Part shown: positions 850 through 10,604 of the stretch, in pieces
How positions within the stretch are numbered: position 1 is the stretch's first letter
Layout: each line of letters begins with the position of its first letter
Assembly: GCA_014523665.1 (NCBI GenBank)
Contig: JAATVR010000208.1
Span: forward strand, 1-10,604
Reading direction: 5' to 3'
From: Nitrososphaerales archaeon TH526
Lineage (GTDB): Archaea > Thermoproteota > Nitrososphaeria > Nitrososphaerales > Nitrososphaeraceae
DNA length: 10,604 nucleotides
The notes under the pieces: generated by a model
Database searches by the model: none
What the model was told of the DNA's origin: nothing
What the model saw: the letters and a program-made list of their open reading frames with translations, nothing else
Program-made: the position numbers and the translations under genes

Positions 850-1665
850 TTAATCATGTTGTAGAACCTCGTTAAGCCAGCTAGTTTCAGCCTCATCATC
901 AGTTTCTTTATGAATAGTCTTATGATGATCATTATTGTAGTCATTGTCTGCTGCTGCAGCACTAACAGCTTGAGGCCCTGTCACGGGGATATCACCTTCA
1001 GGGGATTGCGAATTTGAGTTAGATTTTGGTTGATCCGATATAGATGAATTTGGTACTGAATTCAAATCTATCCTCTCAAATGTCTGTTGGTTTAACCTAG
1101 ATATGACGTTATTGATCTCTCCTTTTTCTAAGTTAATATGTTCTATTAGGTCATTCGTAGATAGGCTAATTTGTTGATATGTTTCTTCTGTGATCTCATT
1201 GCTTCTATACTGTAACTTAGCGTCAAATAGTACCGATTTTATATTCTGGCTTTCGGTATCTATCTGTTTCAGTCTTTCTTGCAATTGTTCCAGAACTATT
1301 TTTCCTTTATCCTCAAGGTCTTGCAATCTCTTCTGGTACTTTATATAGACCAATTCTACGTCCTCCCTCATCAAATCATTAGCTGTAACCATCTCCTGTA
1401 ATGCTTTGATCCTTTGTAATGCGAGGTTTTTCTGCCTAAGTAACTTCTGTACATCCAATCTCCATTTTGGAATAAAGATCACGTAATCACCCTGTACTAA
1501 TAATTGCTCGTATACTAACTGCTTTAACCCTGCATAACCGCAATCTACACTAACAGATTCTATAGAGCCGTCAATATCTGTTACCATACCAATAACTTTT
1601 CCCATGTAGGTTCCGTACATATCCTTAACCTGTTTACCAATAAACTCTAACTTTACTTCACTCAT
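850..1665 (-). CDS. cdvA: Cell division protein CdvA
   Basis: CdvA is the archaeal-specific component of the Cdv/ESCRT division machinery: it binds membrane at mid-cell and recruits the ESCRT-III homologue CdvB. The 271-residue protein shows the expected order. Residues 1-75 form a PRC-barrel-like beta domain (GKQVKDMYGTYMGKVIGMVTD, then YVIFIPKW). Residues 76-200 form a long charged coiled coil. Residues 203-257 are a hydrophilic Ser/Asn/Asp-rich linker, and a short hydrophobic tail, SWLNEVL (262-268), closes the protein. In Sulfolobus the C-terminal peptide of CdvA binds the winged-helix domain of CdvB; the tail here is the natural candidate for that contact (inference). The ATG start lies about 26 nt after a TATA-like box, so the mRNA may be leaderless. 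It lies downstream of the PAC2 gene but has its own promoter. No cdvB or cdvC is in the window, which is usual for Thaumarchaeota, where cdv genes are dispersed. Confidence 0.88.
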   Translation of the reverse strand: MSEVKLEFIGKQVKDMYGTYMGKVIGMVTDIDGSIESVSVDCGYAGLKQLVYEQLLVQGDYVIFIPKWRLDVQKLLRQKNLALQRIKALQEMVTANDLMREDVELVYIKYQKRLQDLEDKGKIVLEQLQERLKQIDTESQNIKSVLFDAKLQYRSNEITEETYQQISLSTNDLIEHINLEKGEINNVISRLNQQTFERIDLNSVPNSSISDQPKSNSNSQSPEGDIPVTGPQAVSAAAADNDYNNDHHKTIHKETDDEAETSWLNEVLQHD

Positions 1666-1791: not shown

Positions 1792-2538
1792 TTACGCTAT
1801 CCCAGGGGGTTTGCCCCCATGATCCATCACATTTTCTAGGTAATTCATTTGCTGTTCCATAAACTTTTTGCGCTTTTCTTCCTCTTCTAACTCTTTCATA
1901 TCCAAAGAAGGGATTCCTAGAATCTCTGTTAATGTATGTAGAATAGCCTTAGCAGTCATAGGTTGTATAACATTAGGATTATCGATTTCGCCCAGAATGC
2001 ACATCGCATTTAATCCTCTTTCCTTTGCAAGGCCTAGTATTAGACCATTGAATCCTATAATCTGTCCTTCTCCCTCTAAGACATTCATATTGAATTTACT
2101 TATCTTATCAACAATCTGTTCATTATTTACTGCGCCATACACTCCACACGAAGTAGAGGTAGAAGTATTTTGTCTCAAGGCTGCGCCTATTGAATACAAT
2201 ATTTTTACATCAACTCTTTCAGCCATTTTCAGAACTTCATAGCATATTTCGTACAATCTTCGTGGATCTGAAGGATTAAAATCTCCTGTAAATATTACAA
2301 GATCATATTTAGAAACCCAATAAAATTTATAGCTTGACTGAACATACCTAATGATACCTTGGTTATATGTTACAAAAGGTGGCCAAAATGCATAAATTTC
2401 GGCGAAGAGGTCAGCTGCGAGTCTAGTAGCCAAAAGAGTCATTCCCATACCTGCAACATTGCCCATATCAGGCAAAGCAGCAACCATAGTTGGTTGTGAG
2501 ACAAAAGTGGGAATCTTATGAATCTTTAAATTAAGCAT
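1792..2538 (-). CDS. PAC2-family protein (proteasome assembly chaperone homologue)
   Basis: A 248-residue soluble protein of the PAC2 (formerly DUF75) superfamily, whose eukaryotic members help assemble the 20S proteasome and whose archaeal members include PbaA/PbaB-like chaperones. Visible family features are the N-terminal ALPDMGNVAGMGMTLLATRL (residues 21-40), the FTGDFNPSD strand-turn (83-91), and the glycine-rich GEGQIIGFNGLILGLAKERG (156-175) followed by AMCILGEI. A charged helix (LEEEEKRKKFMEQQMNYLENV, 217-237) ends the protein. Unlike PbaB, it has no C-terminal hydrophobic-Tyr-X proteasome-activating motif: it ends PPGIA. It is encoded upstream of cdvA on the same strand with a 126-bp gap, so co-transcription is possible but not required. 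A role in proteasome assembly is inferred from the family only. Confidence 0.85.
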   Translation of the reverse strand: MLNLKIHKIPTFVSQPTMVAALPDMGNVAGMGMTLLATRLAADLFAEIYAFWPPFVTYNQGIIRYVQSSYKFYWVSKYDLVIFTGDFNPSDPRRLYEICYEVLKMAERVDVKILYSIGAALRQNTSTSTSCGVYGAVNNEQIVDKISKFNMNVLEGEGQIIGFNGLILGLAKERGLNAMCILGEIDNPNVIQPMTAKAILHTLTEILGIPSLDMKELEEEEKRKKFMEQQMNYLENVMDHGGKPPGIA

Positions 2539-2816: not shown

Positions 2817-3359
2817 TTAAATGCTAATTCTAATATCGGATAATCCATTCAATCTACTAATCATTTCCCATTCTATTATTGCCCCGCTCAAGAGTAAGAT
2901 TACTACAACTCCTATCTCTACTAAAGTAGACAAAAGATATTCCCTCCAATGCTTTCTCTTCAATAAAGAATAGAAGAGCATACCGCTTCTGGATATGGCA
3001 AGACCATAGGCAACAATTTCCATCAATCCGAAAGGGGTAATAAGAATCAGTAAAGGTGGGATATCATTAAGATTAGCAGATGTTGCTGCAATTGCATTAA
3101 ATACCATACCTGTTGAAAAACCAGAAAAAATTCCTAGGCCTACACCTAGTAATGGAACAAACATGCCTAATGCAATCTTTGCATTATTAATGAATATCCC
3201 TGTCTGATCAATATCTTCAATTTGATCCATGAACCGGTTTTTTAGATCATTTACTTCTGAGCTGCTCATATATATTGATGAACCCCAATAATATGAGATA
3301 AGAAAAGTGATTATACCAAATGCAAGATACAATAAACGTCTCTTGATGGTGAGATGCAA
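2817..3359 (-). CDS. SpoIIM-family (stage II sporulation protein M-like) integral membrane protein
   Basis: A 180-residue membrane protein. Hydrophobic segments lie at about 8-25, 59-92, 100-130 and 142-163, with an extended polar loop (31-57) after the first. The PPLLILITPFGLMEIVAYGL stretch (101-120), with Pro-Phe-Gly and a buried Glu114, is the hallmark of the SpoIIM/DUF95 family. In Bacillus, SpoIIM takes part in peptidoglycan remodelling during engulfment. Archaea lack sporulation and murein, so the archaeal role is unknown. The start codon is TTG with an in-frame N-terminus MHLTIKRRLL. It is supported by a TATA-like box about 27 nt upstream; the next in-frame Met is 30 residues on, past the first membrane segment. 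It is divergent from the DP1 gene. Confidence 0.82.
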   Translation of the reverse strand: MHLTIKRRLLYLAFGIITFLISYYWGSSIYMSSSEVNDLKNRFMDQIEDIDQTGIFINNAKIALGMFVPLLGVGLGIFSGFSTGMVFNAIAATSANLNDIPPLLILITPFGLMEIVAYGLAISRSGMLFYSLLKRKHWREYLLSTLVEIGVVVILLLSGAIIEWEMISRLNGLSDIRISI

Positions 3360-3382
3360 TTCAGTGTATGGGTATTTGCTCC

Positions 3383-3393
3383 TATAATTATTT
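3383..3393 (-). promoter_or_regulatory. TATA box of the SpoIIM-family gene
   Basis: Minus-strand AAATAATTATA, centred about 28 nt before the TTG start at 3359. This predicts an mRNA starting within about 3 nt of that codon and supports the unusual TTG start. Confidence 0.5.
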
Positions 3394-3424
3394 GTAGTTA
3401 TTATTCATTCGTCTGTTACAGAAA

Positions 3425-3436
3425 TGTAATTAAAGA
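3425..3436 (+). promoter_or_regulatory. TATA box deciding the DP1 start
   Basis: TGTAATTAAAGA is centred about 26 nt before the GTG at 3456. This is the main reason to prefer that codon over the more distal ATG at 3354. Confidence 0.45.
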
Positions 3437-3455
3437 TGGCGCTTTCATAGTCAAG

Positions 3456-5036
3456 GTGGACAATTTGGATTTCGGGCCAGAAATATCCAATGCCCTATGT
3501 TTTGCAATTAGTAAAGGATATCAGGTACATCCTGACGCTTTTGAAATGCTCAAAGGGCTTGATATAGATATTCTAGGGATCATTCAAGACATTATTAAAG
3601 CCAAGGTAACTAGTAAAGATAATTCTATAATTCTGGTAGAAGATATAAAAATGGTCGTTGATAAGCATTCTAAAAATGGAGAATCTCAAAATCAAAACAG
3701 TTCTTGCAATAAGTCTTCATCATCATCATTAGATTTATTACATATACGCAATACTGATACATCAGAACAAGTATCATACAAAGTACTTTTAGATCCAACT
3801 CCCATAATTAATAGTGGAGAAGGAGTTGAAGGGTATACTTCGCTATTTAGAAGCAGATATGAAAAATCTATGCACATCTTGTCCTTACGCCCCGATAGTA
3901 GACGAATAACAAGAGTAAAAACTCTGAAGAAAAAAAATACAGATACTGGGAATCAGAAATCATACATGCGGCATGAACAATTCTCTGGATCATCTTCAAC
4001 AATGGTTGTAGCTGGCTTGGTTATGTCAAGACAGTTCAAGCGTCATGGATTAGAAATAGTGATAGATGATTTTAGTGGAGATTTACATGCAATGGGTACG
4101 ACAGAGGATATAAAAAAACAGGGATCGTTGATTACCACAGATCAAATGGTTATGTTAGAATTAGAGAACAGTGGGAAAAGTCAAAATTTCGTTATAAAAA
4201 ATATAATATCACCTGATATTCCGGATCATTTACCAAACAGAGCCAAATCTGAATCCTACGTGGTATTAATCTCAGACTTACATGTAGGAAGTAAATATTT
4301 CATGGAAACCGCATTTATGAAATTTTTGAATTGGATGTCATCAGCCGACGACGATGAAATTGTAAGGAAGATCAAATTTCTATGTATTGGTGGTGACTTG
4401 ATCGATGGCATAGGAATATTCCCTAATCAAGACAAAGAATTACTTGAATTAAATATTAATAGTCAGATGTCACACGTAATGGACTTACTCTCACGTATAC
4501 CTAAACACATTAATGTTTTTGTTATTCCTGGAAATCATGATCCGGGTCGAAGAGCATTGCCACAACCTTCCATTCCTAGGCAAAACTCTGAAAAACTTTA
4601 CACATTTCAAAATTTTAAGATGCTTGGAAATCCCAGTCTAATCGAATTGAATGGTGTAAAGATACTAATGTACCACGGGCAGAGTCTAGATGACATCATA
4701 GGTACGATCCCTGATCTAAGTTATGCTAAGCCTGCGGAAGCAATGAAAGTATTATTGAGGGCAAGACATCTTTCTCCAATTTACGGAGAACGTACTCCTA
4801 TAGCACCCGAACAAGAAGACCATATGGTAATTACTGAAGTTCCAGACATATTTCATTCAGGACATATACATGTTCTAGATGCTCAAAATTACCGCGGCAC
4901 ATTAATAGTAAATTCTGGAACTTGGCAGGGACAGACAAACTTTCAAAGAACAATGGGCATTATTCCTAATCCTGGAGTTGCAGTTATAGTTGATCTGTCT
5001 ACACTTCAACCATTTATAATGGACTTTAATCAGTAG
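3456..5036 (+). CDS. polB: DNA polymerase D (Pol II) small subunit DP1, 3'-5' exonuclease
   Basis: DP1 is the proofreading subunit of the archaeal replicative polymerase PolD, partner of DP2, which is also in this window. Numbered from the GTG (526 residues): an N-terminal helical domain (about 1-75), a Ser/Asn-rich low-complexity linker (about 80-95), an OB-fold region (about 180-260), and a calcineurin-like phosphoesterase domain. All the metal-binding motifs are present: SDLHVG (D274, H276), GGDLIDG (D314), PGNHD (N360, H361), MYHG (H407) and HSGHIH (H470, H472), so the nuclease should be active. An in-frame ATG at 3354 would add 34 mostly hydrophobic residues and begin inside the divergent SpoIIM-family gene. 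The GTG is better placed relative to a TATA box, and the residues just after it (ALCFAISKGYQVHPDAFEML) look like a normal DP1 start. The 3' end overlaps the end of orc1 by 11 bp, tail to tail. Confidence 0.93.
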   Translation: MDNLDFGPEISNALCFAISKGYQVHPDAFEMLKGLDIDILGIIQDIIKAKVTSKDNSIILVEDIKMVVDKHSKNGESQNQNSSCNKSSSSSLDLLHIRNTDTSEQVSYKVLLDPTPIINSGEGVEGYTSLFRSRYEKSMHILSLRPDSRRITRVKTLKKKNTDTGNQKSYMRHEQFSGSSSTMVVAGLVMSRQFKRHGLEIVIDDFSGDLHAMGTTEDIKKQGSLITTDQMVMLELENSGKSQNFVIKNIISPDIPDHLPNRAKSESYVVLISDLHVGSKYFMETAFMKFLNWMSSADDDEIVRKIKFLCIGGDLIDGIGIFPNQDKELLELNINSQMSHVMDLLSRIPKHINVFVIPGNHDPGRRALPQPSIPRQNSEKLYTFQNFKMLGNPSLIELNGVKILMYHGQSLDDIIGTIPDLSYAKPAEAMKVLLRARHLSPIYGERTPIAPEQEDHMVITEVPDIFHSGHIHVLDAQNYRGTLIVNSGTWQGQTNFQRTMGIIPNPGVAVIVDLSTLQPFIMDFNQ

Positions 5037-6252
5037 AGAATAATCCTGTGAGAATAGAATCCTCTTTTAAGGCTTCCTTCACAGTTGAATGTGGTACGGT
5101 GATCCTAATTTTTTGTGATCTACCATATCTTCCTTGACTTACTACATCACTAGTTATTAGTCCTAATTGATCTAACTCACTCATAATTTGGGTTATTCGA
5201 CGTTGGGTCAATGGCTCTTGCTCAATACGTCTACATATATCTGAGTATATTTCATATACTTCCCCAGTGTTACCGTTTTTTGATTTCAATATTGCTAATA
5301 TTATCATTTTGGTATGCGTTGTTGAATTTCTCAAAACTTCATAATTTGTGTCCTTTTCAATTTTTTCTTGTGCTAATCTAATATGCTTTTCTTCAACTTT
5401 ATTCGCTCTTTCTATTTCTGCAATTTCAGCTGCTACTCTTAAAAGGTCAATCGCCTTTCTGGCATCTCCATGCTCTCTACCGGCCATAGCTGCACAAAGA
5501 TTAATAGCCGCACTTGAAACTGCGTCCTCATTAAATGCTAACATTGTCCTTTCTGCAAGGATTCTTCGCAGTTGTTCTACAGTATACGGATTGAACACCA
5601 ACTCTTCTTCGCTGAGACTACTCCTAACTCTTGGATCAAGTTTATCCTTAAATGTTAGACTATTAGATATTCCTATTAGGCTAATAAACGATTCAGTTGA
5701 GATTCTCTCGTTAGCCCTAGTAAAATTATAGAGTATATCATCCCCATTCTTTTCTACCAGTGAATCAATTTCATCTATAACAAGAATCACATAAAGTTTT
5801 TTCTTTCTTTGAATGAATTCTAATATTCTATCGGTAGCCTCACCCATTGATAAGCCTGTAAAATGAACCTGTAATTTTTTTTCTCCTTTATTGATACCCA
5901 TTTTTTCAGCAATTTCATGCAAGACCTTATATGCTGTATTTGCACTCTTTGCGTTTACAAATGGTACTATTAATTCTATTCCTAATTCCTCGCCCTTAAT
6001 AGAAAGTCGATGTAAGACATTCTTAATCACGGCAGTCTTTCCTGTTCCCGGTTTTCCAAAAAGCAATAAATTAGACGGTCGAGACCCTTTTAAAACAATA
6101 GATAAAGTATGTGCGATAGTCTTACTTTCCTCGTCTCTAAATGGAAGTCGGTCAGGCACATAATCTATAGTTAATGTTCTTCTATCTTTAAGAACTAGCG
6201 ACGTACCTGAAGCCGCTTTATCAAATATACTATCAAGGCTATCATCATTCAA
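5026..6252 (-). CDS. orc1/cdc6: Replication initiator Orc1/Cdc6
   Basis: Orc1/Cdc6 binds origin recognition boxes through its AAA+ and winged-helix domains, melts DNA and loads the MCM helicase. The 408-residue protein has Walker A GKPGTGKT (66-73), Walker B VIDEID (158-163), sensor 1 GISN (194-197), the DPRVRSSL arginine-finger region (206-213), sensor 2 GDARKAIDLL (262-271) and a C-terminal winged helix (about 310-390) with the wing QGRYGRSQKI. Length and order are typical. The only usable start is TTG at 6252: a stop codon lies three codons further upstream. A GGGAATGATG stretch about 7 nt before it could act as a weak Shine-Dalgarno sequence. The promoter abuts an ORB-like element, so the protein may repress its own gene (inference). 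It lies next to the putative origin, the classic archaeal arrangement. Confidence 0.95.
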   Translation of the reverse strand: MNDDSLDSIFDKAASGTSLVLKDRRTLTIDYVPDRLPFRDEESKTIAHTLSIVLKGSRPSNLLLFGKPGTGKTAVIKNVLHRLSIKGEELGIELIVPFVNAKSANTAYKVLHEIAEKMGINKGEKKLQVHFTGLSMGEATDRILEFIQRKKKLYVILVIDEIDSLVEKNGDDILYNFTRANERISTESFISLIGISNSLTFKDKLDPRVRSSLSEEELVFNPYTVEQLRRILAERTMLAFNEDAVSSAAINLCAAMAGREHGDARKAIDLLRVAAEIAEIERANKVEEKHIRLAQEKIEKDTNYEVLRNSTTHTKMIILAILKSKNGNTGEVYEIYSDICRRIEQEPLTQRRITQIMSELDQLGLITSDVVSQGRYGRSQKIRITVPHSTVKEALKEDSILTGLFSTD

Positions 6253-6263
6253 ATTTATTCATC

Positions 6264-6293
6264 ATTCCCATTCCCATTCCCATTCCCATTACC
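6264..6293 (+). repeat. Hexamer tandem repeat ATTCCC x4 plus ATTACC
   Basis: Four perfect ATTCCC units and a fifth with one change lie directly upstream of the orc1 TTG, inside its likely 5' leader and promoter. On the orc1 strand this reads (GGGAAT)n and creates a row of in-frame ATG codons every six bases. Confidence 0.9.
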
Positions 6294-6296
6294 ATG

Positions 6297-6305
6297 TAAA
6301 TATAC
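6297..6305 (-). promoter_or_regulatory. TATA box of orc1/cdc6
   Basis: Minus-strand GTATATTTA, which predicts a transcription start near 6275 and a leader of about 22 nt. It directly adjoins the ORB-like element to its right, so Orc1 bound there would compete with TBP/TFB. Confidence 0.5.
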
Positions 6306-6307
6306 CC

Positions 6308-6324
6308 CTCACCCCTGTTTTTCC
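6308..6324 (-). promoter_or_regulatory. ORB-like element 1 (degenerate)
   Basis: On the minus strand GGAAAAACAGGGGTGAG, matching the two strong boxes at 13 of 17 positions, including GGAAA and AGGGGT. It forms an inverted pair with element 2: the 11-mer AGGGGTGAGGG occurs in both, on opposite strands. Confidence 0.6.
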
Positions 6325-6330
6325 TTTCCA

Positions 6331-6460
6331 ACATAAGAAGGATACTAAACTAATAAGGTGTTAACAACAAGTTAACAAACGATTTTAAACAAGAGAATCA
6401 ATTATTGTTAATTCTTAGCTTAACTGTCTATTAATAGATATAATAGATAATGAGATATGA
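6331..6460. other. AT-rich candidate duplex-unwinding element
   Basis: This stretch is 24% G+C by hand count, bracketed by inverted ORB-like elements 1 and 2. It contains two GTTAAC palindromes 11 bp apart (6360 and 6371) and alternating TA-rich sequence from about 6430 to 6450. Its position fits an unwinding element; no melting calculation was done. Confidence 0.5.
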
Positions 6461-6468
6461 ACTGCAAA

Positions 6469-6485
6469 AGAAATCAAGGGGTGAG
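6469..6485 (+). promoter_or_regulatory. ORB-like element 2
   Basis: AGAAATCAAGGGGTGAG, matching the strong boxes at 13 of 17 positions. It is on the opposite strand from the other three elements. Confidence 0.6.
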
Positions 6486-6546
6486 GGTCAATACATTGTT
6501 CGATTGGGTGTTAACGCTGGTTCACAATCATACTTTGCTAGCATAA

Positions 6547-6589
6547 AATGTCCCAAAACATACCCCTTTATTTCCACTGGAGAGTTAAT
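6547..6589 (-). repeat. 43-bp direct repeat, copy 1, containing a strong ORB
   Basis: Identical at all 43 positions to copy 2, with a 61-bp period. The minus strand at 6559-6582 reads CTCCAGTGGAAATAAAGGGG followed by TATG, very close to the ORB pattern known from Sulfolobus and Pyrococcus origins (CCAGTGGAAAC-type half followed by AAAGGGGT). This is the most likely high-affinity Orc1 site. Confidence 0.85.
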
Positions 6590-6607
6590 AACACTTTTAA
6601 CATTGTT

Positions 6608-6650
6608 AATGTCCCAAAACATACCCCTTTATTTCCACTGGAGAGTTAAT
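6608..6650 (-). repeat. 43-bp direct repeat, copy 2, containing a strong ORB
   Basis: Perfect second copy; the ORB core is at 6620-6643 on the minus strand. Only the 18-bp spacer between copies and the outer flanks differ, which marks the repeat borders sharply. The GTTAAT word is included at its right end. Confidence 0.85.
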
Positions 6651-6668
6651 CTGAACTACATCTTGTGA

Positions 6669-6683
6669 TTTGTTATTAACAAA
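6669..6683. repeat. Perfect inverted repeat TTTGTTA-T-TAACAAA in the origin region
   Basis: A 7-bp arm on each side of one central base. It contains the recurrent TTAAC/GTTAA word on both strands and could be a dyad protein-binding site. Confidence 0.6.
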
Positions 6684-6797
6684 CAATGAGAAAACGATTT
6701 AATCCCAGCTTCTCATCATTTTTTCTTAACAGTTTGCAATCAATAAAGCATGTTAAAGAATGTTAATGATGATTCAAGATAATGTTAACATCAACTG

Positions 6798-6815
6798 AAA
6801 TAATAAATTAAAAAT
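6798..6815 (-). terminator. T-rich terminator of the membrane-anchored winged-helix gene
   Basis: On the minus strand the sequence after the stop runs ATTTTTAATTTATTATTT, a typical archaeal T-rich stop, about 13-30 nt past the stop codon. It would keep transcription from running into the origin. Confidence 0.5.
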
Positions 6816-6828
6816 ATGCAGAACGTGT

Positions 6829-7458
6829 CTATACTGATTCCAAATCCTGCTCAGTCCTAGTTGTGGCGTTCAAATCACTATGCAAATCACGCAAATGCCG
6901 TAATCCTGTTTCAGTAATGCTATATTTAAATGGCTTAGAACTTGTATCTCTCATCACAAAACCTGAGTGATATAATCCATTCATTATGCGGGATGTATGT
7001 TCACGTGTCTTTCTGACCCTCTCTTGAATTTGCCTTGTCGTCATTGGCTTCTCCCTTAATAATAACAATATTTGCTCTAAAGTATCTAAGTAAGTACGCG
7101 TTTGTGATGGCACAGGTTTCTCTCTTGATCCTTCAATAATCACACCATCTTGTGACATCATATCAATATCACGTTCCGAATCTCCCTTTGTACTATCGAT
7201 ATCACGTGATACTAATCGAGTCCTTTCTGATAATTCTAACATGTCAACCTTAGCTTTAAGCTCAGCAATCGCTTCATCATATAAGTGCAGTTTATTGGCG
7301 TATTGTCTTATTTTGTTATCAATAATCGCATTTTTTAGGGAATTGTTATTATACTTAAAGAATTTTACAGCCTTGTAAGATAGTATTATTGCAACTCCGC
7401 AAAAAAAAGAAACTACTACTAACAGCAGGGTGTGCATATCATAGCCGTCAAACATCAC
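6829..7458 (-). CDS. Membrane-anchored coiled-coil winged-helix protein
   Basis: A 209-residue protein with one N-terminal membrane segment (LLLVVVSFFCGVAIILSYKA, 11-30) followed by basic residues (K31, K35), so the rest is probably cytoplasmic. Residues 41-76 form a predicted coiled coil (NKIRQYANKLHLYDEAIAEL and following). An acidic, hydrophilic linker covers 80-115. Residues 122-192 are a MarR/ArsR-like winged helix: LDTLEQILLLLREKPMTTRQ, then TREHTSRIMNGLYHSGFVMR, then a wing FKYSITETGLRHL. I do not know a named family with this exact arrangement. It could be a membrane-bound transcription factor, or a protein tethering the neighbouring origin to the membrane (inference from position). 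The GTG start lies about 26 nt after a TATA-like box, and an 18-bp palindrome covers that start. An ATG at 7455 is the alternative start. Confidence 0.8.
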   Translation of the reverse strand: MMFDGYDMHTLLLVVVSFFCGVAIILSYKAVKFFKYNNNSLKNAIIDNKIRQYANKLHLYDEAIAELKAKVDMLELSERTRLVSRDIDSTKGDSERDIDMMSQDGVIIEGSREKPVPSQTRTYLDTLEQILLLLREKPMTTRQIQERVRKTREHTSRIMNGLYHSGFVMRDTSSKPFKYSITETGLRHLRDLHSDLNATTRTEQDLESV

Positions 7459-7471
7459 ATCTAGATGTGAT
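7454..7471. promoter_or_regulatory. 18-bp perfect palindrome over the start of the membrane-anchored winged-helix gene
   Basis: ATCACATCTAGATGTGAT is a perfect dyad spanning about -13 to +5 relative to the predicted transcription start at 7458. A dimeric winged-helix protein bound here would block transcription. The gene's own product is an obvious candidate ligand, but this is inference. Confidence 0.6.
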
Positions 7472-7479
7472 ATATCATT

Positions 7480-7487
7480 GATATAAC
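7480..7487 (-). promoter_or_regulatory. TATA box of the membrane-anchored winged-helix gene
   Basis: Minus-strand core TTATAT centred about 26 nt before the GTG at 7458. It sits just downstream of the stop codon of the preceding small gene, so the two genes need not share a transcript. Confidence 0.5.
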
Positions 7488-7489
7488 TT

Positions 7490-7864
7490 TTATTTTTGAT
7501 GGATTAATTTTTGTATTATTTCATCTACAAGTGATATCACGTTACGACTATCAGTCTGAGATATCATATCACGTTTGATGCTTTCCATAAGATGTGATGT
7601 GTTATCTAATATTACTTCTATTGTATGAAATGTCCCTTCATCAATCATGTTTAGATATCTTAGGATAATCAGACTATAGAGAATTCCAATGACTTTTTGT
7701 TGAGATTGTTTGAGCTGTCTATAATATGCACCTTTACTTATCCTGTCAGGCGGGCTCCTGCCGGAGGATTTATTATAAAGTATATAAATCTGGCGTTCAG
7801 TAAATAAAGAATTTGTAATAATGTGTCTGATTATATCATTATATTGTATTTCATTAGAAGCCAA
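7490..7864 (-). CDS. Unknown small helical protein with possible HTH
   Basis: I do not recognise this family. From the TTG at 7864 it has 124 residues; a TTG at 7876 would give 128. It appears all-helical, with no membrane segment or signal peptide. The middle resembles a helix-turn-helix: LFTERQIYILYNKS, a short Gly/Pro loop, then ISKGAYYRQLKQSQQKVIGI, a layout like the sigma-region-4-type HTH in which a Ser/Lys-Gly turn precedes the recognition helix. The second half is hydrophobic-periodic with LVDEIIQKLIHQK at the end, possibly for dimerisation. The loop codes for SSGRSPPDR and is a small GC-rich island (about 7743-7770) in an AT-rich gene. The 7864 start is preferred because a TATA-like box lies about 26-29 nt upstream. 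Its place between the origin-proximal membrane protein and the PolD large-subunit operon suggests a DNA-related role, but that is only context. Confidence 0.68.
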   Translation of the reverse strand: MASNEIQYNDIIRHIITNSLFTERQIYILYNKSSGRSPPDRISKGAYYRQLKQSQQKVIGILYSLIILRYLNMIDEGTFHTIEVILDNTSHLMESIKRDMISQTDSRNVISLVDEIIQKLIHQK

Positions 7865-7886
7865 TGTACTATACAAATTGGTATAG

Positions 7887-7943: not shown

Positions 7944-7964
7944 GTGCTTCGGAATGATTTGAAT

Positions 7965-8705
7965 GTGGAACGCAGGGTCGAGAATTACATATTAGACGAA
8001 TTAAAGAAGTATGGTTCGCTGTGCTTTCCACTCATTGATTCAGAAAACTCTATCAATGCTGCACTTATAGGAAATAAGGCTCAGAATCTAGGTGCATCTG
8101 CAATACTTATCGGTGGTTCGTCAGCGACAGATCAAATTGAACTAGCAGAAGTAGTCTTTACTATTAAGTCCAAAATCAATATACCTGTAATACTATTTCC
8201 GGGGAATGTAACTGGAGTTGTACCTAAAGCTGATGCAATTCTTTTCAGTTCCCTACTTAATTCAGAGAATCCTTACTTTATTACTGGGGCGCAGGCTTTG
8301 GGAGCTTTGTCAGTTAAAAAATATAACATCGAGGCATTACCGACTGGATATCTTGTAATCGGTGAACATACAACGGCATGGTTTGTTGGTCAAGCTAGGT
8401 CTATCCCTTTTGATAAGAGAGGAATAGCAGTAATGTATGCGTTGGCAGCGCAGTATTTAGGGATGAGATTTCTATACCTAGAAGCTGGATCAGGTGCGGC
8501 TCACAGTATTCCCCCAGATATGATAGCAGCAGTACGAAAACAATTTGCTGGTGTTTTAATCGTGGGTGGTGGCGTTAGTACTCCTGAGAAAGCTAAGGAA
8601 ATCGCTATGGCAGGTGCAGATATAATAGTAGTTGGAACAATGATAGAGAAAGATGATGATTGGGAGAATAAACTATCTTCTATTATACGCTCAATAAGGA
8701 GATGA
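7965..8705 (+). CDS. Geranylgeranylglyceryl phosphate synthase (GGGPS)
   Basis: This enzyme makes the first ether bond of archaeal membrane lipids, joining sn-glycerol-1-phosphate to geranylgeranyl diphosphate with Mg2+ at the membrane surface. The 246-residue TIM barrel shows the family motifs: PLIDSE (22-27), ILIGGSS (47-53), LFPGN (77-81), FSSLLNSENPYFITG (94-108), YLEAGSGA (171-178), IVGGGVS (199-205) and GADIIVVGT (217-225). The glycine-rich phosphate-binding loops near the C-terminus are intact. The GTG at 7965 is preferred over the in-frame GTG at 7944 because of the TATA box and because family members begin close to the first helix (VENYILDELKKYG). It is the first gene of an apparent operon with DP2, 13 bp downstream. 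Confidence 0.94.
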   Translation: MERRVENYILDELKKYGSLCFPLIDSENSINAALIGNKAQNLGASAILIGGSSATDQIELAEVVFTIKSKINIPVILFPGNVTGVVPKADAILFSSLLNSENPYFITGAQALGALSVKKYNIEALPTGYLVIGEHTTAWFVGQARSIPFDKRGIAVMYALAAQYLGMRFLYLEAGSGAAHSIPPDMIAAVRKQFAGVLIVGGGVSTPEKAKEIAMAGADIIVVGTMIEKDDDWENKLSSIIRSIRR

Positions 8706-8718: not shown

Positions 8719-10604
8719 ATGACGATAACTAGCGATGGTATAACTCGTCTGAGGAATACCCATATGCCAGTTTATTACATGAATTATCAACAAGATATTC
8801 TGAGAAAAGTAGAGCAAATTTATGAATTAGCCTCAAAAGCAAGAAAAGTAGGTCTAGATGCTTCAAATGCGATTGAGTCTAAGATTGCATACGATCTGGC
8901 TGATAGGGTGGCAAAAATGCACGATATTGATATTGCAAGTAGGCTAAGGACCTTATTAGAACGGACCACTAAAGAAAAAGCGGCACTCAAGATTGCCGAA
9001 GAAATTGCTTTGGGAGAATATGATGCAGGTGATCTCAGAACTCGACTTGATAATGCCGTCCGAGTGAGCTTAGCTGTAGTCACAGAAGGTGTTACTGTGG
9101 CACCCTTACAGGGTATCTCCAATGTTCAACTTAAAAATAATTCTGATGGTAGTACCTACCTTTCAATCTCATTCGCTGGGCCAATACGGTCCGCTGGAGG
9201 AACCGAAGCGGCACTTACTATGTTGATAGCAGATCATGCTCGAAAGGTTGTTGGTATAAGTAAATATATCGCAAACTCATACGATGATGAAACTGGTCGA
9301 TTTGTAGAAGAACTTCGTACATATGAACGCGAAGTAGGTAATTTCCAATTCAAAGTTTTGGATGAAGACGTCATTAAATGCATCAAAAGTTTACCCGTGG
9401 AACTTGACGGTATTGATACCGACCAGGTAGAGGTTTCAGGTCACAGAAACATGAGGCACATCTCTACCGATAGGGTACGTGGGGGTGCATTAAGGGTAAT
9501 GAATGATGGTATTATTGGCAGAAGTAGAAAGTTACTAAAACTCGTCGAAGCTCTAGACCTTGATGGCTGGGAGTGGCTTAAAGATCTAAAAGGAGCAGTA
9601 CAAACTGGTGATGGTGACGATGCTGCTAATCACAGAATGTCAGAAGTTATTACCGGAAGACCTGTACTTTCTATGCCAAAGCGGTTGGGTGGATTTAGAT
9701 TAAGATATGGCAGGTGTTATAATACTGGCTTCGCAACAATTGGAATTCATCCCGCAGTTCCAGTTCTTTTAGATCACGCGATAGTTGTAGGAACGCAGAT
9801 AAAAATGGACGTACCAGGCAAAGCATCCACCATAGGCCTAGTAGATGATATAGATCCACCTATAGTGCGACTTAATGATGGGAGTGTTTTGCAAGTAAGA
9901 ACTGCTGAACATGCATCAGCTGTACGACAAAGAGTTGAAAAAATACTTTATCTTGGTGACATACTTATAAGCTATGGTGATTTTCTTGAAAATAATGCTG
10001 AGCTGCTTCCTGCGTCTTACGTAGAAGAGATATGGCTTCAAGAATTACACTCCCATCTGTCAAATTCAAGTATTTCAAACCTGCAAAGATCAGAAATTAA
10101 TCCCCAATTGATTAAACTAACGAGCGAATCATTCAAGGACATACCAAATGTAAAAGACGCATTTAGAATTAGCCTGATGTTAGGCATACCATTATATCCA
10201 AGGTATTCTTTTTTCTGGGAACATATTAGTATAGACGAGGTATTATTCCTAAAGGAAAACCTAATTTGTTCCTATATTCCGGACGATGACGATAATAAAG
10301 CATCATATTCTTATTTCTTAATTAAAAATAATTTTCAATTAAAAGATATTTTGGAGCGACTTGGAATATACCATTCATTAGTAGATGAAGAGCATATTAA
10401 GATAGATAATCCTGACCAGGTATACTCTTTGCAGAGACTCCTGTTTTCTGATTCCAGTATCCATACAGAAAGATATGGTTTACAGTTCTGTGCTAATGAT
10501 AATATCAAATCATTGAATACAATAGAATTTGTCTCATATATTTCTGGAATTCGATTGATGCCAAAATTTGCTTCTTCAATTGCAGTAAGGGTCGGCCGCC
10601 CTGA
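8719..10604 (+). CDS. polC: DNA polymerase D (Pol II) large subunit DP2, N-terminal part, cut by window edge
   Basis: DP2 is the catalytic subunit of PolD, the archaeal replicative polymerase, and pairs with the DP1 encoded at 3456-5036. The reading frame stays open for 628 codons to the window end. Family features are the N-terminal helices IYELASKARKVGLDASNAIE (about 34-53), the strongly conserved FAGPIRSAGGTEAALTMLIA near 150-175, RGGALRVMNDGI near 255, CYNTGFATIGIHPAVPVLLD near 333-352, and GTQIKMDVPGKA just after. FRISLMLGIPLYPRYSFFWE near 480-500 also fits. The catalytic Asp-containing motifs and zinc-binding modules lie beyond the window. No intein interrupts the visible part. The ATG at 8719 is chosen because a Shine-Dalgarno sequence precedes it; ATG 8764 is possible. 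Confidence 0.95.
   Translation, partial: MTITSDGITRLRNTHMPVYYMNYQQDILRKVEQIYELASKARKVGLDASNAIESKIAYDLADRVAKMHDIDIASRLRTLLERTTKEKAALKIAEEIALGEYDAGDLRTRLDNAVRVSLAVVTEGVTVAPLQGISNVQLKNNSDGSTYLSISFAGPIRSAGGTEAALTMLIADHARKVVGISKYIANSYDDETGRFVEELRTYEREVGNFQFKVLDEDVIKCIKSLPVELDGIDTDQVEVSGHRNMRHISTDRVRGGALRVMNDGIIGRSRKLLKLVEALDLDGWEWLKDLKGAVQTGDGDDAANHRMSEVITGRPVLSMPKRLGGFRLRYGRCYNTGFATIGIHPAVPVLLDHAIVVGTQIKMDVPGKASTIGLVDDIDPPIVRLNDGSVLQVRTAEHASAVRQRVEKILYLGDILISYGDFLENNAELLPASYVEEIWLQELHSHLSNSSISNLQRSEINPQLIKLTSESFKDIPNVKDAFRISLMLGIPLYPRYSFFWEHISIDEVLFLKENLICSYIPDDDDNKASYSYFLIKNNFQLKDILERLGIYHSLVDEEHIKIDNPDQVYSLQRLLFSDSSIHTERYGLQFCANDNIKSLNTIEFVSYISGIRLMPKFASSIAVRVGRP

Follow-up and report, generated by a model that had tools for sequence, protein, structure and literature searches.

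What is the function of the gene-free stretch that lies beside the initiator gene orc1/cdc6 of Nitrososphaerales archaeon TH526? The DNA analyzed here (hereafter the window) is a complete contig of 10,604 bp (C49; JAATVR010000208.1) from a draft genome of 4.9 Mb in 833 contigs. As orc1 starts at position 6252 on the minus strand and the next open reading frame (ORF) ends at 6829, the intergenic gap comprises positions 6253-6828, or 576 bp. An earlier note on the same DNA had proposed that this gap is a replication origin with four boxes that resemble the archaeal origin recognition box (ORB). The data presented below support that proposal and add two features that were missed there, namely an array of the hexamer TTAACA and an inverted repeat of this hexamer between two of the boxes. 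Most probably, the gap is a chromosomal Orc1/ORB origin of the oriC1 type, supplemented with an ORB-inverted repeat-ORB module that is bound by a putative second factor, which we will call X.

The initiator gene (5026-6252, minus strand) encodes 408 amino acids from a TTG start, matches the Pfam families Cdc6_C and Cdc6_lid and scores above the cut-off of TIGR02928. Its product shares 94-95% identity with Orc1 at the loci of the four nearest relatives, and its best relatives in the PDB are 2v1u and 2qby_A, which we take to be DNA-bound initiator structures. ORBs were scored against the 20-position common archaeal ORB of Ori-Finder 2, TCCA[CG]T[TG]GAAA[TC][GA]AAGGGGT (PMC4164010). The four best-scoring places of the window are box A (6311-6330, minus strand, 14/20, in a tie with a place at 1890), box B (6463-6482, plus strand, 15/20) and the perfect boxes C (6562-6581, minus strand, 20/20) and D (6623-6642, minus strand, 20/20), the last two being 61 bp apart. 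The sequence CCAGTGGAAANNAAGGGG, with at most three mismatches, was found twice against 0.04 expected, and exact copies of CCASTGGAAANNAAGGGG occur at just two places in the draft genome, C and D, with none for the reversed control. In addition, the core GAAAN3-4AGGGG is present four times in the window, exactly in the boxes A to D, where shuffled sequences were expected to yield 0.15 copies and yielded two at most. Box A has a degenerate dyad and an intact G-string, and in an alignment of 27 family rows both A and B hold columns with a conservation of at least 95%. It is this combination of a shared core and family-conserved columns that makes A and B credible, even if the strict core pattern misses one or the other in some family members (e.g. 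L011, L012, L019 and L025). The four boxes, two strong and two degenerate, are indeed present in the gap, as the earlier note had stated.

Since A lies on the minus and B on the plus strand, the two are inverted and their dyad halves point toward the stretch between them (6331-6462), which has a GC content of 24.2% over 132 bp and constitutes a candidate unwinding element. ORBs of opposite polarity thus flank an AT-rich stretch, the boxes being degenerate by score and their columns conserved in the family. AT-richness as such is not unique to this position, as 147 of the 10,473 segments of the same length in the window (its own overlaps included) are equally AT-rich, in eight clusters. Within the candidate element the string AATCAA (6396-6401, plus strand) covers six adjacent columns that are at least 95% conserved in the 27 family rows. 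Taken together, the adjacency to the initiator gene and the presence of consensus ORBs support the classification of the gap as an Orc1/ORB origin, as far as this can be judged from sequence, and the inverted pair around the AT-rich stretch, the neighboring genes for DNA polymerase D (PolD) and the recurrence in relatives add to that support.

The recurrence was established at several levels. An Orc1/Cdc6-family match was found in 58 of 61 genomes (that of TH526 included), some of which have only a paralog or a fragment. A C-D pair could be assigned in 39 of the 50 upstream regions first examined, some of the other 11 lying at contig ends, and in 56 of the 71 regions of a wider set that was searched for spacings of 58-65 bp. 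In these 56 regions the spacing is mostly 61 bp (32 regions), followed by 62 (14), 60 (7), 64 (2) and 59 bp (1). A scan of 397 genomes of the phylum for two copies of GAAAYRAAGGGG with 36-66 bases between them (a spacing of 48-78 bp), anywhere in the genome, retrieved a tandem pair in 42 genomes and none in the reversed control. Sorted by kinship, these are 40 of the 89 genomes of the own order, neither of the two genomes from other orders of the class and two of the 306 genomes elsewhere (G496 at 60 bp and G576 at 70 bp). All 40 pairs of the own order are spaced 60-62 bp, despite the wider range allowed, and as the scan pattern was strict their number represents a minimum. Moreover, a scan of 250 genomes of the class retrieved exact CCASTGGAAAYRAAGGGGT in 39 (reversed control 0), and pairs of it 61 bp apart are also found in other orders (G064, G067, G071 and G087). 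Given that it recurs in relatives, both in much of the own order and in certain further orders of the class, the tandem layout must be considered common in the group. The comparison of orc1-upstream regions that the earlier note had suggested as a check therefore turned out in favor of the layout, and an architecture peculiar to TH526 is not supported.

Several variations on the layout were encountered. Box A itself is tandemly duplicated upstream of orc1, with copies 58 bp apart, in the congener L005 (and also in L036). In family f2, D is followed at 40-41 bp by a third ORB in tandem in four of the five origins read (L039, L052, L218 and L219). The ORBs of family f9 (e.g. L055, L234 and L239) have an altered dyad, with TGGA for TCCA; such boxes may escape consensus-based tools, and the sequences leave room for the possibility that Orc1 and its box changed together in this family.

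Closer inspection of C and D revealed that the tandem boxes are part of a larger unit. Both are embedded in an exact direct repeat of 43 bp, the copies of which (6547-6589 with box C and 6608-6650 with box D, plus strand) are likewise 61 bp apart. Between the boxes lies the inverted repeat TTAACA-T-TGTTAA (6597-6609), which is perfect here (12/12). The element TTAACA-N-TGTTAA is found 15-17 nt from box C with at least 9/12 matches in 47 of 47 rows of the clade, and with at least 10/12 in 41 of them, as opposed to nine rows from other families or orders, of which none reaches 10/12 and three reach 9. Among the matches of the phylum scan the inverted repeat scores at least 10 in 37 of the 40 genomes of the order and 7 in G496 (G576 was left out). 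At a helical pitch of 10.5 bp per turn, the 61 bp from C to D amount to roughly six turns (61/10.5 = 5.8), so that the two boxes probably face similar sides of the helix.

The sequence around the two boxes suggests that they do not evolve independently. Over the 14 nt beyond the G-string, C and D agree to a fraction of 0.555 within the same genome (39 genomes), compared with 0.350 for C/D, 0.357 for C/C and 0.348 for D/D between genomes. When the D boxes were dealt among the genomes, a control that does not preserve relatedness, 10,000 trials gave at most 242 matches against the 303 observed. At the level of the genus, the flank of C matches that of D in the same genome better than that of the orthologous C in g1 (13.8 versus 11.5 of 14; four genomes), g2 (14.0 versus 11.0; five genomes) and g11 (11.5 versus 7.0; four genomes), whereas the trend is opposite in g12 (4.7 versus 8.7; three genomes), g6 (8.0 versus 8.5; five genomes) and g8 (1.5 versus 14.0; two genomes). 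Homogenization of C and D, by gene conversion or unequal exchange, would fit three of the six genera with at least two genomes. The alternative that the likeness reflects selection for a shared extended site is weakened, as the flank letters differ between congeners. From the concerted evolution of C and D it would appear that paired origin boxes can undergo homogenization within one genome.

The hexamer of the inverted repeat is not confined to the C-D interval. The gap contains 13 copies of TTAACA on both strands (6359-6790), where dinucleotide shuffles contain 1.03 on average and none of 1000 reaches 13; the remainder of the window has 0.06 copies per 576 bp. In each of the 28 family origins with assigned boxes the TTAACA count was reached by none of 200 shuffles. 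Enrichment was scored within at most 700 bp upstream of orc1 and defined as at least four copies, a count reached by no more than three of 200 shuffles. It was observed in 49 of 49 regions of at least 500 bp from the families f1 (28), f2 (5), f3 (2) and f9 (14); L045, L056, L232, L235 and L237 were left out as too short, and L228 (324 bp, three copies, reached by five of 200 shuffles) is borderline and was treated as negative in the tree. These four families form a supported group (99/96) in a tree of 71 Orc1 rows, with long branches involved in the deep joins, and the array label requires three changes on this tree, versus 12.0 when shuffled. Outside the order, two regions of f18 and one each of f20 and f22 have six to seven copies, reached by 0 to 3 of 200 shuffles. 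In four complete relatives the origin regions (451-460 bp) contain ten (G005), seven (G023), nine (G027) and eight (G016) copies, and the densest 500-bp segments of the 400-800 kb sampled from the same genomes contain five, six, three and four, respectively.

The hexamer is not exclusive to the origin, given that the own genome contains a cluster (C53:5160-5235) of seven copies within some 76 bp, which locally exceeds the array in density. This cluster and a further one at C147:2889-2970 (L216 and L217) are situated near contig ends; in the bases read, the best ORB scores nearby are only 13 and 14 of 20, and the two clusters possibly mark regulated genes or a mobile element. Across the own genome, pairs of TTAACA show no enrichment (61 places versus 79 in the reversed control). 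Recombination sites of the dif type were considered as a source of GTTAAC and rejected: in the part of the source that we drew on, the string occurs only in oligonucleotide flanks, and Thaumarchaea are described as lacking xerA (PMC2958812).

These observations can be combined with the published model of archaeal initiation, in the outline that our sources give of it, where inverted ORBs surround a DNA unwinding element (DUE) and MCM is loaded between them (PMC6742236, PMC12141716), one Orc1 monomer binding each ORB with fixed polarity and with its AAA+ domain on the G-string (PMC6742236, PMC12141716, PMC3936714). In the scheme that we propose, the Orc1 encoded next door would bind the boxes A to D. 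The opposed boxes A and B, with their dyad halves facing the AT-rich stretch, would set the polarity, such that the DNA is unwound and two MCM helicases are loaded between them. C, D and TTAACA-N-TGTTAA would form a second module, in which a dimer of X is flanked by two Orc1 molecules on the same face of the DNA. As a nucleoprotein anchor, this complex would nucleate assembly, after which X may occupy the remaining TTAACA sites within and near the AT-rich stretch and tune or organize initiation. X could be the membrane-anchored winged helix-turn-helix (wHTH) protein that is encoded on the other side of the gap, or a nucleoid protein that acts like UBP of Sulfolobus.

Several results weigh against this reading. 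By score alone A and B are not significant, as places scoring at least 14 number five in the window against a mean of 3.54 in shuffled windows, and those scoring at least 15 number three against 0.74. No C-D pair could be assigned in 15 of the 71 orc1-upstream regions, five of which have less than 220 bp of sequence. TTAACA is not enriched in any of the 12 testable regions of the families f4, f6, f7, f8, f10-f14 and f16, and since these other families of the order lack the array, X would be dispensable for some Orc1/ORB origins. The GC skew, another check suggested earlier, gave a divided outcome. As the own genome cannot be used for this purpose because of its 833 contigs, the skew was sampled in stretches of the four complete relatives. 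In G005 (40 stretches of 20 kb) a two-arc fit places the origin at 1.52-1.56 Mb, close to orc1 at 1.48 Mb (r 0.495 versus a permutation 95% level of 0.418), in support of an origin at orc1. The fits are uninformative in G023 (r at most 0.28 versus 0.42) and G016 (0.485 versus 0.541), neither being significant, and G027 speaks against the locus with a weak best fit at 0.58-0.68 Mb (r 0.452, permutation 95% level 0.438), about 1 Mb from orc1 (1.73 Mb), where r is 0.05. The cumulative skew of the window itself is lowest around 7300-7700, next to the gap and outside it; it was discarded as origin evidence because it follows the gene strands.

The alternative that survives best, possible though unlikely, is that the array and the C-D module form a centromere-like or membrane-tethering site at the origin, which serves segregation. 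It derives its appeal from the protein mentioned above (6829-7458, minus strand), which on the basis of hydropathy, sequence and a structural model starts with a membrane helix, continues with a long helix and ends in a wHTH domain (residues 115-209). A homolog is located upstream of orc1 and on the same strand in 70 of the 72 genomes that have both on one contig (distance 519-3436 bp, median 985 bp), the exceptions being G087 and G090; this count excludes four genomes that could not be judged, five orc1 genomes without a hit and G064, where the homolog adjoins an ORB pair on C287 and the Orc1 matches are on other contigs. All matches to Pfam and NCBIfam stay below the cut-off, and where the family has been named the annotation is mostly that of a predicted transcriptional regulator. 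The wHTH profile gave a single hit among the PDB sequences (E 0.019), which we consider a chance match. Such wHTH proteins bind palindromes as dimers. This property and the position next to the origin make the protein the first candidate for X, and a tethering dimer would likewise bind the palindromes, spread along the array and hold the origin at the membrane. The gene occurs, too, in families with array-free origins, which speaks against the protein both as X and as a tether. As for the recognition helix of the wHTH, the threonine of its REHT motif is found in seven of 12 array-negative rows and is absent in three proteins (L258, L262 and L268) from genomes counted as array-positive or borderline. 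Moreover, the best folds for the wHTH part of the model (mean pLDDT 68.7), PadR, MarR and AspA, are tied and cannot point to a function, and none of the ten window proteins that were compared with Pfam matched ParA or ParB. The related idea that origin and chromosome anchor are one locus, where the wHTH protein would bind the C-D repeat between two boxes occupied by Orc1, extend over the array and tie both initiation and segregation to the membrane, is one to which we attach little weight.

A regulatory role, in which the TTAACA elements are operators that control the transcription of orc1 or of the upstream genes and have no part in replication, is also quite improbable. In its favor, the array is directly upstream of orc1, and the dense cluster on C53 has no good ORB match within the bases read. 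Against it, the strictest element is located between two ORBs, separated from the start of orc1 by 345 bp, and all 47 rows of the clade preserve the distance between this element and box C (15-17 nt). It is very improbable that replication starts elsewhere and that the gap serves only as a promoter autoregulated by Orc1 or as a dormant origin: the skew that fails to support orc1 in three of the four complete relatives and the second Cdc6 paralog in the genome (C238:414-1421, L002, 30% identity) would fit this view, but archaeal skew is described as generally weak (PMC12999951, in part), the ORB core pattern occurs only at the gap in the genome, and the paralog locus, rejected as a further origin, has a best ORB score of just 14/20 in the 2921 bases read.

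The PolD genes flank orc1 and the gap on either side, i.e. the small subunit DP1 (3354-5036, plus strand; Pfam DNA_pol_E_B, the subunit name being derived from match and context) and the large subunit DP2 (8719-10602, plus strand, open at the window end; PolC_DP2_N and PolC_DP2_central). Such a linkage has been reported for several euryarchaea, according to the part of the source consulted (PMC2643942). The other genes encode a PAC2 protein (1792-2538, minus strand), a SpoIIM-like protein (2817-3359, minus strand), an ORF without Pfam match (7490-7876, minus strand) and a PcrB-family protein (7944-8705, plus strand). The cell-division gene cdvA (850-1665, minus strand) lies about 4.6 kb from the origin. 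A mechanical ORF of 72 amino acids within the gap (6450-6668, plus strand) overlaps the boxes B, C and D and is probably not a gene; the family alignment contains many indels over it. The orc1 leader contains a short tandem repeat of CATTCC units (6263-6296), with fewer copies in the genus relatives read.

The analysis provides a base-level origin map for the Nitrososphaeraceae and their relatives, and from the conserved composite module a second factor that binds the origin can be predicted for the group. The module opens two questions to direct testing, namely in what way the Orc1 boxes cooperate and whether archaeal origins involve a membrane protein. Among the papers listed by full-text searches of open-licence literature, and in the sources seen in part, we recognized no base-level description of the C-D module. 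Within the Thaumarchaea one origin is reported to have been mapped in Nitrosopumilus maritimus (cited in PMC4010727), and Nitrosocaldus cavascurensis has ORB repeats beside cdc (PMC5797428); the sections of these two descriptions available to us contain neither a base-level box layout nor a second motif. The pNOB8 centromere protein AspA, one of the three tied fold matches, resembles the origin-flanking protein in its wHTH; the latter differs in the membrane helix and long helix that precede the wHTH, and the ParA and ParB partners of the AspA-ParBA system have no counterpart among the window proteins scanned. The haloarchaeal oriC1 (Haloarcula hispanica) shares inverted ORBs with G-strings and an adjacent orc1, whereas its accessory repeat is G-rich and located between the inverted ORBs, in contrast to TTAACA-N-TGTTAA between tandem ORBs. 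The oriC1 of Sulfolobus, as depicted in the sections consulted (PMC12141716), comes close as well, with an adjacent Orc1-1 gene, three ORBs of which two are inverted around an AT-rich region (ORB3-DUE-ORB2), and a second, non-ORB element, ucm. This ucm is described as a single motif midway in the DUE, whereas the origin described here has an outer tandem pair of ORBs 61 bp apart, an inverted repeat between them and about a dozen TTAACA elements.
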